Below, piece by piece: positions 11,825 to 52,583 of a stretch of 64,000 bases of DNA. Numbering within the stretch: position 1 is the first letter of the stretch; every line of letters starts with the position of its first letter. The notes below the pieces were generated by a model. It saw only the letters and a list, made by a program, of their open reading frames with translations, searched no databases and had not been told where the DNA came from. The stretch comes from Deltaproteobacteria bacterium (GTDB taxonomy: Bacteria; Myxococcota_A; UBA796; GCA-2862545), in assembly GCA_007693595.1 (NCBI GenBank), contig REDI01000035.1, forward strand, positions 1 to 64,000. The letters are read 5' to 3'. The position numbers and the translations under genes were made by a program.

Positions 11825-13921
11825 TCAGTACAACCGCTGCACAGCCAGGAGCGGCTGCCCCTCCCCGATCGCCGAGCGAGCCCTCGGCCCCAACGTGACG
11901 GTCGGCTCGTCGCCCTCGTCGACCCCCGCAACGACCACATGCGCGCTGCGCAGGCCTCCAAGCCAGAAGCGTCGATCGCTGACGTAGAGAAGATCCCCCT
12001 CGCCGGCGTGAATACGATCCGCGAGAGCGCTGCTGATCCGCGCCTCGGGGAGCTGCGCCTCGCCGCGGAAGGCCTCGTGGTCGACCGCGACCGGCCGGGC
12101 CGGCACGAAGGCGCTCTCGAGCTCCTCCCCCGCGCTGCCCTTGTACCGAGCCAGCGCGTCGGACATCGTGCCCCAGACATAGCCGCGAATGCTGTCGAGA
12201 GAGCGGGGCTGGGTGATCAGGGTCAGGCTCACCCCGATGGCGGCCGACACGGCCAGTCCGAAGAAGGCCCGCATGAACTTGTAGACCTTCGCACCCTCGA
12301 GCCAGCCGTCGCCCACCTCGACCATCGGTACCCCGTGAGCGAAGGGCGTGATCAGCCAGGGCCAGACGATCGAAGCGGCGATCGCCAGCGTCCCCCCCAC
12401 CATGGTCGCGACCGCCGCAACCGGGGTGGTGCGCTTCCAGAAGACCCCCATCAGCAAGGCGACGACCATCGGCGGCGTGATGGCAGCGGTAAAGGCGCCG
12501 TGAGCCTCGTAGATGGTGTCGAACATCGAAAAGACCGGGACGAGCGCCACCCCGATGATCGTGACCCCGATCGAGGTGAAGCGGGCGACCCGGAGCTGGG
12601 AGGCCTCGGATGCGCCGGGTCGGAGCGGCCGGTAGATGTCGTTCACGACGATCGCCGCGATCGCGGTGATGAGTGTATCGACCGTGGACATGAGCGCCGC
12701 GGTGAGCGCCGCCATGATCAGGCCGAAGATCCCGGGGCTCGCGAGGAGCTCCGCCGTCACGAAGAAGACCTCGCCCCCGTCCATATCCGCAGGCAAGATG
12801 CCCGCGGTCGCCAGCGCACGGCCCGCCCAGCCGCCCGAAGCGACCACGATCGCGGCGATCGGCATCAACACAATGAGGACCGCCACCGCCGCCTTGCGCC
12901 CCTCATTGACCGAGCGCGCAGCCATGAAGCGCATCAGGATCCCTTGATTGAGAAAGTAGAACATGGCAGAGTTGGCGATCGCGTCCTGCCAGAAGATCCC
13001 GACCGCCGGATAGGCCGGATCTTCGTTGAAGTGAGGAAAAGCCATGCGATGCGAGCGCGGCAGGTGCTCCCACAGGTCCACCACCCCGCCGAGCTGCACG
13101 GCGGCCAGCCCCAAGATCAGCAGCCCCGCCGCGAGCAGCATGACCCCCTGGAAGAGATCGGTCATGATGACGGAGGTCTGACCCCCGAAGGTTACGTAGA
13201 TTGCCGAGATCGTCGCGACCACCACCGCCGCAGTGAAGACGGGCCACCCGAGCAGGATGTGCAGCGCCTTACCCATCGTAAAGAGGTTCACCCCAATGTA
13301 TCCAACGAGGTAGACTAGGAGCAGCCCCGTGACGACCCGCCGGGCAAGCGGGTTGAAGCGGTGCTCGAAATACTCGGGAATAGAGGTCAGCCGCGAAAAG
13401 TAGAGCAGCGGCAGCCAACCGAAGAGCAAGAGCGGCAGCCAGAACCAGTCGTTGAGGTAGGTCTGCGTACTCGCGATCCCGTGGTTCCATGAGATCGAGC
13501 TATACTTCACGAAGGAGTACGACCCGATCGTGGTCGCGATCAGGCTGAAAGCGAGCAACCACCACGAGAACCGTTGCCCACCAAAAAAGAAGTCGCGGGT
13601 GTCTTTCTGGTTGCGACCAAACCAGGTTCCAATCGCGAGAATCGCAAGAAAGTACCCGATCATCACCCCGTAGTCGAGGGGGGTGCCAAGCATGTCCTTC
13701 GTCGGGCGCTCGCCCGTGAAGGGCTTAGGGGTCGCCTCGGTCATCGGGGCGTACTGAAGCCAGGACTGAAGGCCCGCGAAGAAGAGTAGCCCTCCGATCA
13801 GCGCGAGCAGCCAGACCAGACCTCGCCCCCTCAGCGAGACGTAGCCCTGACGCCAGGCGATGATCAGCCCGAAGACGAAGACGATCCCACCCAGGCCGTA
13901 CTGGTAGAGCAGCGGATCCAT
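11825..13921 (-). CDS. sodium:solute symporter family protein
   Basis: An SSS/SLC5-type secondary transporter of about 698 residues with some 13 hydrophobic helices. Family features include RDFFFGGQRFSWW near the N-terminus, the SIPEYFEHRFN segment, a YVTFGGQTSVIMTD stretch and STVDTLITA. A long soluble C-terminal tail of about 140 residues extends past the last helix. AGGAGG lies 8 bases before the ATG at 13921; an in-frame GTG at 13924 is an alternative. The substrate is not evident, but the neighbouring acyl-kinase fusion suggests a short-chain monocarboxylate such as acetate, propionate or lactate. That link is inference from position only. Confidence 0.87.
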   Translation of the reverse strand: MDPLLYQYGLGGIVFVFGLIIAWRQGYVSLRGRGLVWLLALIGGLLFFAGLQSWLQYAPMTEATPKPFTGERPTKDMLGTPLDYGVMIGYFLAILAIGTWFGRNQKDTRDFFFGGQRFSWWLLAFSLIATTIGSYSFVKYSSISWNHGIASTQTYLNDWFWLPLLLFGWLPLLYFSRLTSIPEYFEHRFNPLARRVVTGLLLVYLVGYIGVNLFTMGKALHILLGWPVFTAAVVVATISAIYVTFGGQTSVIMTDLFQGVMLLAAGLLILGLAAVQLGGVVDLWEHLPRSHRMAFPHFNEDPAYPAVGIFWQDAIANSAMFYFLNQGILMRFMAARSVNEGRKAAVAVLIVLMPIAAIVVASGGWAGRALATAGILPADMDGGEVFFVTAELLASPGIFGLIMAALTAALMSTVDTLITAIAAIVVNDIYRPLRPGASEASQLRVARFTSIGVTIIGVALVPVFSMFDTIYEAHGAFTAAITPPMVVALLMGVFWKRTTPVAAVATMVGGTLAIAASIVWPWLITPFAHGVPMVEVGDGWLEGAKVYKFMRAFFGLAVSAAIGVSLTLITQPRSLDSIRGYVWGTMSDALARYKGSAGEELESAFVPARPVAVDHEAFRGEAQLPEARISSALADRIHAGEGDLLYVSDRRFWLGGLRSAHVVVAGVDEGDEPTVTLGPRARSAIGEGQPLLAVQRLY

Positions 13922-21694: not shown

Positions 21695-21795
21695 GCTTCT
21701 CAGCCACCCCGTGAATCTCTCCTGGGCGCAGGTAGCACGCGGGCACGGTGGCCCCCGAAACCTGCTAGGGTAGACCGTACCGAGGGAGGTCGCCG

Positions 21796-23706
21796 CTGGG
21801 CTCGCCGAAGGAAACCGGCTCTATAGGGCGCTACCGGCTGGTAGACCGCATCGCTACCGGCGGAATGGCCGATGTCTTCCTGGCGATCGACCCGCAGGTG
21901 GGGGCACATCGTCCGATCGTGATCAAGCGCATCTTGCCACACCTCGCGCAGGATGAAAGCTTCATCCATATGTTTCTGCAAGAGGCGCGGATCGCGATGG
22001 CGATCGACCACCCGCACGTCGTGCGCATCCACCGCCTCTCGGAGCACAATGGGCTCCCTTACCTGGTCATGGACTACATCGACGGGCTCACCTTCCGACA
22101 GCTCTCGCGAGCTGCCGCCGAGGCCGGGCGCCTGCTCCCTCTCGCGGTGACCCTCGACCTGATGATGCAGGCCTGCACCGGAGCGCACGCGGTGCACCAG
22201 ACCGAGGTGGGGGAGCACCGCGAGATCGTCCACCGCGACCTGTGTCCACACAACCTGATCGTGGACCGGAGCGGCCACGTCGTGCTGCTAGACTTCGGGA
22301 TCGCCAAGGCGGCTCGGGGCATGGACACCACGCGGTCGGGGGTGTTGAAGGGCAAGACGTCCTACCTTGCCCCCGAGCAGGTCCGCGCCGAGGCCGTCGA
22401 CCGGCGCACCGACGTATGGGCGCTGTCGGTGGTGACCTGGGAGCTGCTGGCGGGTCGGCCCATGTTCGAAGGCCTGAGCGACCACGAGATCATGCAGCGC
22501 ATCACGCGCGGCCAGCTCCCAGACTTGCGGAGCTATCGGCCCGATCTGCCCGACAGCCTGATCGCGACCGTGCACCACAGCCTCCAGCTCCCCCCCGACA
22601 AGCGCTTCCCCAACGCTCACGCCCTTCGAGAAGCGCTGGCGAACACGGCTTCCCGCTACGACATCGTGCCCAGCCAGATCCGAACTGCCGACTACCTCAT
22701 GAGGCTCGAGGCCGGTGAGGCGCCCACCTCCACCACGGAGCCCACCCCGGTCCGGCCTCGCCAGCCGGCGCGGCGAACCGCCCTGAACCTCACGGTGATC
22801 ATGCTCTCGGCCTTCATCGCTGTCGGGGTCTTTCTGGTGAGCGTGCTGGTCGGAGCCCTCTTGCTCGCCCCCACCGCACCCCAGGGCGAGGCGGTCAGGA
22901 TCGTCTTCGCCCCTATCTTGCCTCCCGACGAACTCTCGGCCGAGCTCGAGCCCCTCCGCCTGGACCTCGAGCGGGAGCTCGAGAGGCCGGTCGGTTTCTT
23001 CGTCGCGCCAAACTACCGCACCACCGGCGCCCTCTTAGTACGCGAGAAGGCCGACTTCGCCGTCCTTCCCCCCTTGCTCTTCCTTCGGGTAGAGGCACGA
23101 ATGGGCGACGATCTCGAGGTGGTCGCCATGACGGAGATCGACAAGTCCATGGTGGTCGATGGCCTGATCATCGCGGGGGTCGATGTGCCGTGGGAGTCTC
23201 CCCAGAGCCTCCAAGGGCGCTCGCTGTGCTTGACCGATCCAACCAGCGCGACGGGCTACGGGCTGCCTCGACAGTGGATGGCCGATCACGGGATCGATCC
23301 CGACAAGGACCTCGCCTCGATCCACATGAGCGGGGACCACCACCAGGTGATCTCCGATGTCGCCAACGGGATCTGCGAGCTGGGAGCCGTCTACTCAGGC
23401 GCCCTCAAGAGCGCTGTCGATGCCGAGGTGCCCGCCCACCTCACCCGCCAGGTCGCGGTCACCGGCCACACCCCCAACGAGAGCATCTGTGCGGGGCCGC
23501 ACACCGATCCCGCCCTGGTCGAAGCGCTCCGCTCCGTCCTGCTCGCGTGGGACCCCCTCGACCGCCATGGGAGGCGAAACCTTGGCTCTCGACATCGCCT
23601 CAGCGGCTTCGTGCCCTTCGACAGCGAGTCCTACGATCCCCTGCGCCGAGCGCTGAAGATGATCGACGAGGCCGACGAGCCCGTCGAGATCCCCGAGGAC
23701 CTATGA
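21796..23706 (+). CDS. Ser/Thr protein kinase with extracellular PhnD-like sensor, CTG start
   Basis: A membrane receptor kinase of 636 residues. The kinase domain spans about 10-285: IGRYRLVDRIATGGMADVF (glycine loop), the ATP-site Lys in VIKRI, HRDLCPHN, DFGIAKA and LAPEQ. One transmembrane helix lies at about 328-357. Residues 365-620 resemble the substrate-binding protein of phosphonate transporters (PhnD), so a phosphonate-like or other small ligand may be sensed outside. The first ATG, at 21865, lies after the glycine loop has begun and would cut it. No ATG, GTG or TTG lies in frame between the upstream stop and 21865, but CTG at 21796 has GGAGG 6 bases upstream. The stop overlaps the next start (ATGA). 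Confidence 0.87.
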   Translation: MGSPKETGSIGRYRLVDRIATGGMADVFLAIDPQVGAHRPIVIKRILPHLAQDESFIHMFLQEARIAMAIDHPHVVRIHRLSEHNGLPYLVMDYIDGLTFRQLSRAAAEAGRLLPLAVTLDLMMQACTGAHAVHQTEVGEHREIVHRDLCPHNLIVDRSGHVVLLDFGIAKAARGMDTTRSGVLKGKTSYLAPEQVRAEAVDRRTDVWALSVVTWELLAGRPMFEGLSDHEIMQRITRGQLPDLRSYRPDLPDSLIATVHHSLQLPPDKRFPNAHALREALANTASRYDIVPSQIRTADYLMRLEAGEAPTSTTEPTPVRPRQPARRTALNLTVIMLSAFIAVGVFLVSVLVGALLLAPTAPQGEAVRIVFAPILPPDELSAELEPLRLDLERELERPVGFFVAPNYRTTGALLVREKADFAVLPPLLFLRVEARMGDDLEVVAMTEIDKSMVVDGLIIAGVDVPWESPQSLQGRSLCLTDPTSATGYGLPRQWMADHGIDPDKDLASIHMSGDHHQVISDVANGICELGAVYSGALKSAVDAEVPAHLTRQVAVTGHTPNESICAGPHTDPALVEALRSVLLAWDPLDRHGRRNLGSRHRLSGFVPFDSESYDPLRRALKMIDEADEPVEIPEDL

Positions 23707-45462: not shown

Positions 45463-45557
45463 CGTCACCTCGACGTTGCACCGCTGTTGCAGACTCGATA
45501 CCTCGCTGAGGTCCACGGGCGTTCATCGGCCGTCGCTCGTGCTGTCTGGAGCCCCCC

Positions 45558-46325
45558 CTGCCCTCGCTGAAGGCCCGCTACGAGTTCAAGTACCTGGTCT
45601 CCAAAGAGCAGGAAGCCTGGATCCGCGAGCTGGTGGCCATGTTCTGTGATCACGACCCCTACGGCGTCGACGGGCGGTACAAGATCTGGTCGCTCTACTT
45701 CGACACCTGGAACTGGCACCTCGCTCAGCAGACCGTCGAAGGGCAGCGTAACCGCTACAAAGTCCGCATGCGCACCTACCACATCCACCGCGACGCCGAC
45801 GTCTACTGCGAGATCAAGAGCCGGGTCGGGACCTCCATCCTCAAGCTCCGCGCCAAGGTCGACCGCGAGACCGCGGTCCGTATGGCGCGTGGGTCCACGC
45901 CGCCTGAAGGGGGGTACCTTACCCTTGAGCCTTCGCATCAGGCCGACCTGAACCGCTTTCGCGATCGGATCGATCTCACCGACCTGCGCCCTCGCATGTG
46001 GGTGGGATATACCCGGCAGGCCTGGCTGTCGCGCTACGGCGATGGCGCGCGCGTGACCTTCGACACCGAGGTCGTCTGCCAGGTTCCCGATGCGGAGCAG
46101 CCCTTCAGCGCGGCGCCGGGTGGGTGGAGGCCGGTGGTGCTCGACGGGGAGCAACAGATCGTGGAGCTCAAGTTTAACGGGGCCTTTCCCTTCTGGATGC
46201 AGCGGATCGTGCGGTCGATGGGGTTGCGCAGGATCAGTTGCTCGAAATACTTACAGAGCGCCCAGCAAGCTGGCGGTGTACCATGGGCAAAGATGGAGTG
46301 GAGTGAGCGATGGACGCTGTCCTGA
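45558..46325 (+). CDS. VTC-domain polyphosphate polymerase, CTG start
   Basis: A 255-residue VTC domain protein that should polymerise phosphate from ATP into polyphosphate on the cytoplasmic face of the membrane. The fold begins at once with RYEFKYLVSKEQ; KVRMRTY, CEIKSRVGTS and VELKFNG carry the conserved basic and acidic tunnel residues. The first GTG or ATG (45633, 45639) falls inside the fold and would remove the first strands. The only in-frame alternative after the upstream stop is CTG; the one at 45558 has TGGAG 6 bases upstream and includes all strands. It overlaps the DUF4956 gene by 16 bp. Confidence 0.85.
   Translation: MPSLKARYEFKYLVSKEQEAWIRELVAMFCDHDPYGVDGRYKIWSLYFDTWNWHLAQQTVEGQRNRYKVRMRTYHIHRDADVYCEIKSRVGTSILKLRAKVDRETAVRMARGSTPPEGGYLTLEPSHQADLNRFRDRIDLTDLRPRMWVGYTRQAWLSRYGDGARVTFDTEVVCQVPDAEQPFSAAPGGWRPVVLDGEQQIVELKFNGAFPFWMQRIVRSMGLRRISCSKYLQSAQQAGGVPWAKMEWSERWTLS

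Positions 46326-48072: not shown

Positions 48073-52583
<4,511 letters not shown>

Follow-up and report, generated by a model that had tools for sequence, protein, structure and literature searches.

Where does translation of a receptor kinase gene begin when the first in-frame ATG lies within the glycine-rich loop of its kinase domain? This question is raised by a gene on the forward strand of the window, the whole 64,000-nucleotide stretch of DNA analysed here. The features on which it turns are the following.

21796-23706, forward strand: receptor Ser/Thr kinase gene, with a Pkinase domain (PF00069) at residues 13-272, a hydrophobic segment at about residues 312-340 and PF12974 at residues 369-613.
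21785-21789, forward strand: Shine-Dalgarno sequence GGAGG (GGAGGT to 21790), six bases from CTG 21796; duplex with the anti-Shine-Dalgarno of -12.6 kcal/mol.
21796-21798, forward strand: proposed kinase start codon CTG, from the sequence, an orthologue alignment and a start-codon scan.
21799-21864, forward strand: N-terminal codons and the greater part of the glycine-rich loop (GSPKETGSIGRYRLVDRIATGG), lost with a start at ATG 21865 according to an alignment of eight orthologues and the Pkinase model, which begins at residue 13.
21865-21867, forward strand: first in-frame ATG of the kinase, inside the glycine-rich loop.

Direct reading of the sequence bounds the kinase frame upstream by an in-frame TAG at 21766-21768 on the forward strand, from which the codons run TAG GGT AGA CCG TAC CGA GGG AGG TCG CCG CTG (21796) GGC TCG CCG AAG GAA ACC GGC TCT ATA GGG CGC TAC ... 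GGC GGA ATG (21865). An earlier note on this DNA had put the stop at 21772, a coordinate that corresponds to a TAG at 21771-21773 in another frame; its statement that no ATG, GTG or TTG lies between the stop and 21865 held, and none of these codons was found between 21749 and 21864 when all three forward frames were scanned. Further upstream, GTG 21711 runs to a stop at 21771 and GTG 21748, which is in the kinase frame, ends at TAG 21766. Since both hit stops, no simple frameshift yields a canonical start, and starts in alternate frames or reached by frameshift, of which the forward-frame scan found none, were rejected. Two one-mismatch codons were likewise set aside as implausible, AGG 21787 because it sits within the Shine-Dalgarno sequence and AAG 21808 because it lies 18 nt from it. 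As the sequence reads, CTG 21796 is the only plausible kinase start.

The encoded protein argues that the codons ahead of the ATG are needed. Numbered from CTG 21796, its first residues read L/M-G-S-P, as previously described, and the Pkinase match starts at residue 13. IGRYRLVDRIATGGMA, which precedes ATG 21865 (residue 24), aligned and was conserved in all eight orthologues; a start at the ATG would therefore drop most of the glycine-rich loop, and the claim that the loop begins before this codon is borne out by both the model and the alignment. K44, E63, the HRD motif at 146-148 and the DFG motif at 166-168 are invariant in the same alignment, so that the lysine, glutamate, HRD and DFG expected of a Ser/Thr kinase are all present and the catalytic residues are intact. 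A single hydrophobic segment, read from the sequence at about residues 312-340, is a putative membrane segment, and C-terminal to it lies PF12974, a PhnD-like phosphonate-binding domain (residues 369-613, E = 1.2e-37). This is the arrangement of a receptor kinase with a predicted PhnD-like sensor. Like the eukaryotic-like receptor Ser/Thr kinases of Myxococcota, orthologues from its own taxonomic family included, the gene encodes a Pkinase domain, what looks like a transmembrane segment and an extracytoplasmic domain, PF12974; the full two-domain architecture was found in several genomes of that family. The gene differs from these kinases in its start. The source genome (4.92 Mb in 97 contigs) gave 66 kinase-like matches, and among the 47 kinase genes recovered from it the gene at 21796 alone had no ATG, GTG or TTG either close to the glycine-rich loop or ahead of it. 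Three of 87 kinase genes from other genomes were flagged in the same way, but their N-termini are long extensions that begin further upstream.

The signals around the start were then considered. The GGAGG reported six bases ahead of CTG 21796 is present at 21785-21789, and a sequence check found no Shine-Dalgarno ahead of ATG 21865. With the loop codons and GGAGG both preceding this ATG, the view that the kinase fold and the ribosome binding site each call for the CTG is upheld. Across the genome itself, GGAGG at a spacing of 5-8 occurs ahead of 6.9% of clear canonical starts (n = 259) vs 0.53% of in-frame CTG codons inside genes (n = 7,123), giving a likelihood ratio of about 13 for CTG 21796 as a start from the Shine-Dalgarno alone. 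RNA folding around the start shows nothing unusual (z of 0.46 and -0.23). A consensus scan returned no sigma-70 promoter upstream of the kinase, and one element was noticed by inspection.

21763-21771, forward strand: possible extended -10 element, TGCTAGGGT.

If TGCTAGGGT is a -10 box, transcription could possibly start near 21778 and leave a leader of about 18 nt; as the consensus scan gave no promoter, this is put forward as a suggestion only.

The initiator fMet-tRNA, with its anticodon CAU, initiates at CUG via a first-position mismatch, as it does at GUG and UUG. At this gene the ribosome would bind GGAGG, a strong Shine-Dalgarno six bases ahead of the codon; the usual initiator would then pair with CUG in the same manner, and the protein would begin fMet-Gly-Ser-Pro. 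The steps that we infer are the use of the CTG in vivo, its decoding as methionine and an output lower than that of AUG; kinase output from the CTG is expected to lie below what an AUG would give, and its translation is probably weak.

In order to follow the start through related genomes, orthologues were sought by contig scans. A scan with the single protein returned no match, and one with an alignment recovered a same-genus record together with more distant kinases. The same-genus record, G001 (locus L015, contig CALATR010001126.1), comes from an independent assembly and was the sole same-genus orthologue compared; its kinase domain is 65% identical to that of the window. At the aligned site it reads GGAGG-CCCCCG-CTG, against GGAGG-TCGCCG-CTG in the window. 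In addition, a GTG without a Shine-Dalgarno lies in frame in G001, 21 nt ahead of the CTG, and for this reason the start of that gene is ambiguous. Comparison of the two sequences from residue 10 to ATG 21865 shows 13 base changes, of which 8 fall at third positions; over these 14 codons, 7 changes are synonymous and 3 conservative. Changes that are mostly synonymous or conservative indicate that the stretch ahead of the ATG is translated and under purifying selection. The alignment of homologues at the start, which the earlier note had proposed as a check, thus gives a mixed picture: G001 has the CTG at the aligned codon together with the upstream GTG, and more distant orthologues start with ATG, GTG or TTG and have N-termini of differing length. 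Separately, we observed that the kinase orthologues L021 (CTG), L010 and L011 (each ATC or CTG/TTG), from genomes G008, G020 and G011, may use near-cognate starts.

Judged on sequence and comparison, we put at roughly 90% the probability that the receptor Ser/Thr kinase is intact and that its translation truly begins at CTG 21796. The earlier note had left the choice between a used CTG and a sequence error, and the G001 alignment, the pattern of codon changes and the other CTG genes described below favour the former. An error would have turned an ATG, GTG or TTG into CTG at 21796, so that the position is right and the codon wrong. One changed base suffices for this, and the contig appears to be metagenome-assembled, judging from its relatives (those named are Deltaproteobacteria or Myxococcales MAGs) and from the contig count. 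Yet the independently assembled G001 has CTG at the aligned codon and, together with the synonymous pattern, this makes a sequencing error unlikely; the same pattern in other genes of the genome would moreover require that several separate errors had each produced a C in a start codon. We regard such an error as quite improbable. Still less probable is a true start upstream, for instance at GTG 21748, with TAG 21766 being itself an error, read through or skipped by a frameshift. That GTG is in the kinase frame and blocked only by this TAG, and G001 too has an upstream in-frame GTG, though at a place that does not align. However, an alignment of 21748-21796 with G001 gave no conserved reading, the Shine-Dalgarno at 21785-21789 would be wasted, and GTG 21711, the sole other upstream canonical codon, is closed by its stop. 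Least credible of all is translation from ATG 21865 into a pseudokinase or the product of a decayed gene, lacking the beginning of the kinase domain: this codon is the first in-frame ATG, GTG or TTG and the choice of a standard gene finder, but it has no Shine-Dalgarno, it removes most of a loop shared by 8/8 orthologues, the codons upstream of it are under purifying selection and the catalytic residues are intact.

The reading of CTG 21796 as the start led to the question of whether it stands alone. Elsewhere in the genome, CTG seems to be the start of no fewer than three further genes, among them one in the window. Candidate near-cognate starts are listed below, with coordinates on their own stretches where these lie outside the window.

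45558-46325 of the window, forward strand: VTC-domain gene with a CTG start, GGAG (45548-45551)-N6-CTG 45558.
L132, 11623-12576, forward strand: PALP-family gene, AAAGGAGG-TGTGCC-CTG (N6 spacing).
L109, 12133-13854, reverse strand: secreted-protein gene, start at 13854, CTGATC overlapping the upstream TGA.
L122, 7775-10051, reverse strand: receptor kinase gene after a glyS-like gene, likely CTG overlapping the stop of the latter.
L124, 12636-13178, forward strand: GNAT gene that appears to start at ATC, AGGAGG-N4-ATC.

The VTC gene is a clean case of agreement in start position among homologues: exactly at the residue of CTG 45558, five relatives (L145, L147, L148, L149 and L150) have ATG, GTG, GTG, ATG and ATG, and its own first canonical codon, GTG 45633, lies inside the domain. 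For the PALP gene, G001 shows CTG at the corresponding residue, with no ATG, GTG or TTG upstream of residue 17, and two further relatives are without a canonical start there (GGAGG-N5-CTG in L160, a CTGA overlap in L162). In the genome itself a GTG lies three codons downstream of the CTG, 15 nt from the Shine-Dalgarno, because of which the CTG is favoured and is not the sole option. The junction of the secreted-protein gene reads TTGATC in G001, GTGATC in G011 and CTGATC in G005. The kinase on L122 probably starts at CTG as well; its case is weaker because the starts in relatives lie about 11 codons deeper into the gene. The ATC start of the GNAT gene is well supported and appears to be shared by L153, one of the two G001 homologues, which reads GGAGG-N4-ATC, and neither gene has a canonical start. 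As a side observation, an exonuclease-WYL gene (L124, 6355-7206, forward strand) has GGGAGG-N6-ATC ahead of its first canonical codon, a GTG, and this ATC is a possible second start of its kind. An extended start for the reverse-strand window gene at 49736-52099 was rejected, as it clearly begins at ATG 51952.

We then estimated how frequent such starts are. A gene finder based on codon usage was applied to 846 kb, namely the window and 40 stretches picked around kinase genes, and yielded 649 genes. Four well-supported CTG starts and one probable one correspond to about 0.6-0.8%, a rough figure because the screen for CTG was non-exhaustive and the stretches are centred on kinases. A blind test on the 649 genes gave no enrichment of CTG downstream of a strong Shine-Dalgarno in genes lacking a canonical start (7 seen vs 8.1 expected). 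CTG starts must consequently be few, a Shine-Dalgarno ahead of a CTG proves little by itself, and the case for CTG rests on the orthologue comparison. Two other lines were discarded: NTGA stop-start overlaps, in which C is frequent but mostly as CTGATG or with a nearby ATG, are uninformative alone, and extension of coding potential as the sole criterion was often spurious.

A small share of this genome's genes would start at CTG, and rarely at ATC, as in Caulobacter. Near-cognate starts missed by annotation are also a likeness to Deinococcus deserti, a member of another phylum, in which Baudet and colleagues reportedly found non-canonical starts by proteomics in 2010. Ribosome profiling in Caulobacter crescentus (Schrader et al. 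2014, PMC4117421) assigned 0.7% of starts to CTG and 0.25% to other near-cognate codons; the earlier remark that bacteria rarely start at CTG is correct, though at about 0.7% of genes in Caulobacter it is not exceptional. This GC-rich Gram-negative bacterium resembles the present case in its proportion of CTG starts, and differs in that they were measured experimentally there, whereas those of the present myxobacterial MAG are deduced from its sequence and from relatives. Mycobacteria hardly use CTG, leadered CTG not being enriched as initiator (0.03%, PMC4633059), so CTG use varies between phyla. Enterobacterial infC is described as having a near-cognate ATT start missed by annotation pipelines (PMC3091656); the infC of the present genome was inspected for any oddity in its start or sequence and apparently uses TTG, and the kinase has CTG.

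It is rather doubtful that the starts have a regulatory purpose, that is, that this marine and groundwater myxobacterial family keeps CTG and ATC starts as a conserved expression brake, with receptor kinases and a few enzymes deliberately translated weakly or by initiation-factor levels. The CTG start of the kinase, while unusual, belongs to a known, under-annotated kind of near-cognate start. Pipelines restricted to ATG, GTG and TTG would annotate the kinase from ATG 21865, dropping its ATP-binding loop, and would take 25 residues off the VTC-domain protein encoded from 45558. With CTG starts in several genes of the genome, standard gene finders would clip the N-termini of those proteins, and comparing start positions across relatives exposes such starts without experiments. 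Set against the open-access literature, the evidence from relatives that a myxobacterial family has CTG starts at a low, steady rate, and one shared ATC start, would be mildly new. It suggests that a myxobacterial lineage has a CTG start level of roughly 0.6-0.8%, close to that of Caulobacter.
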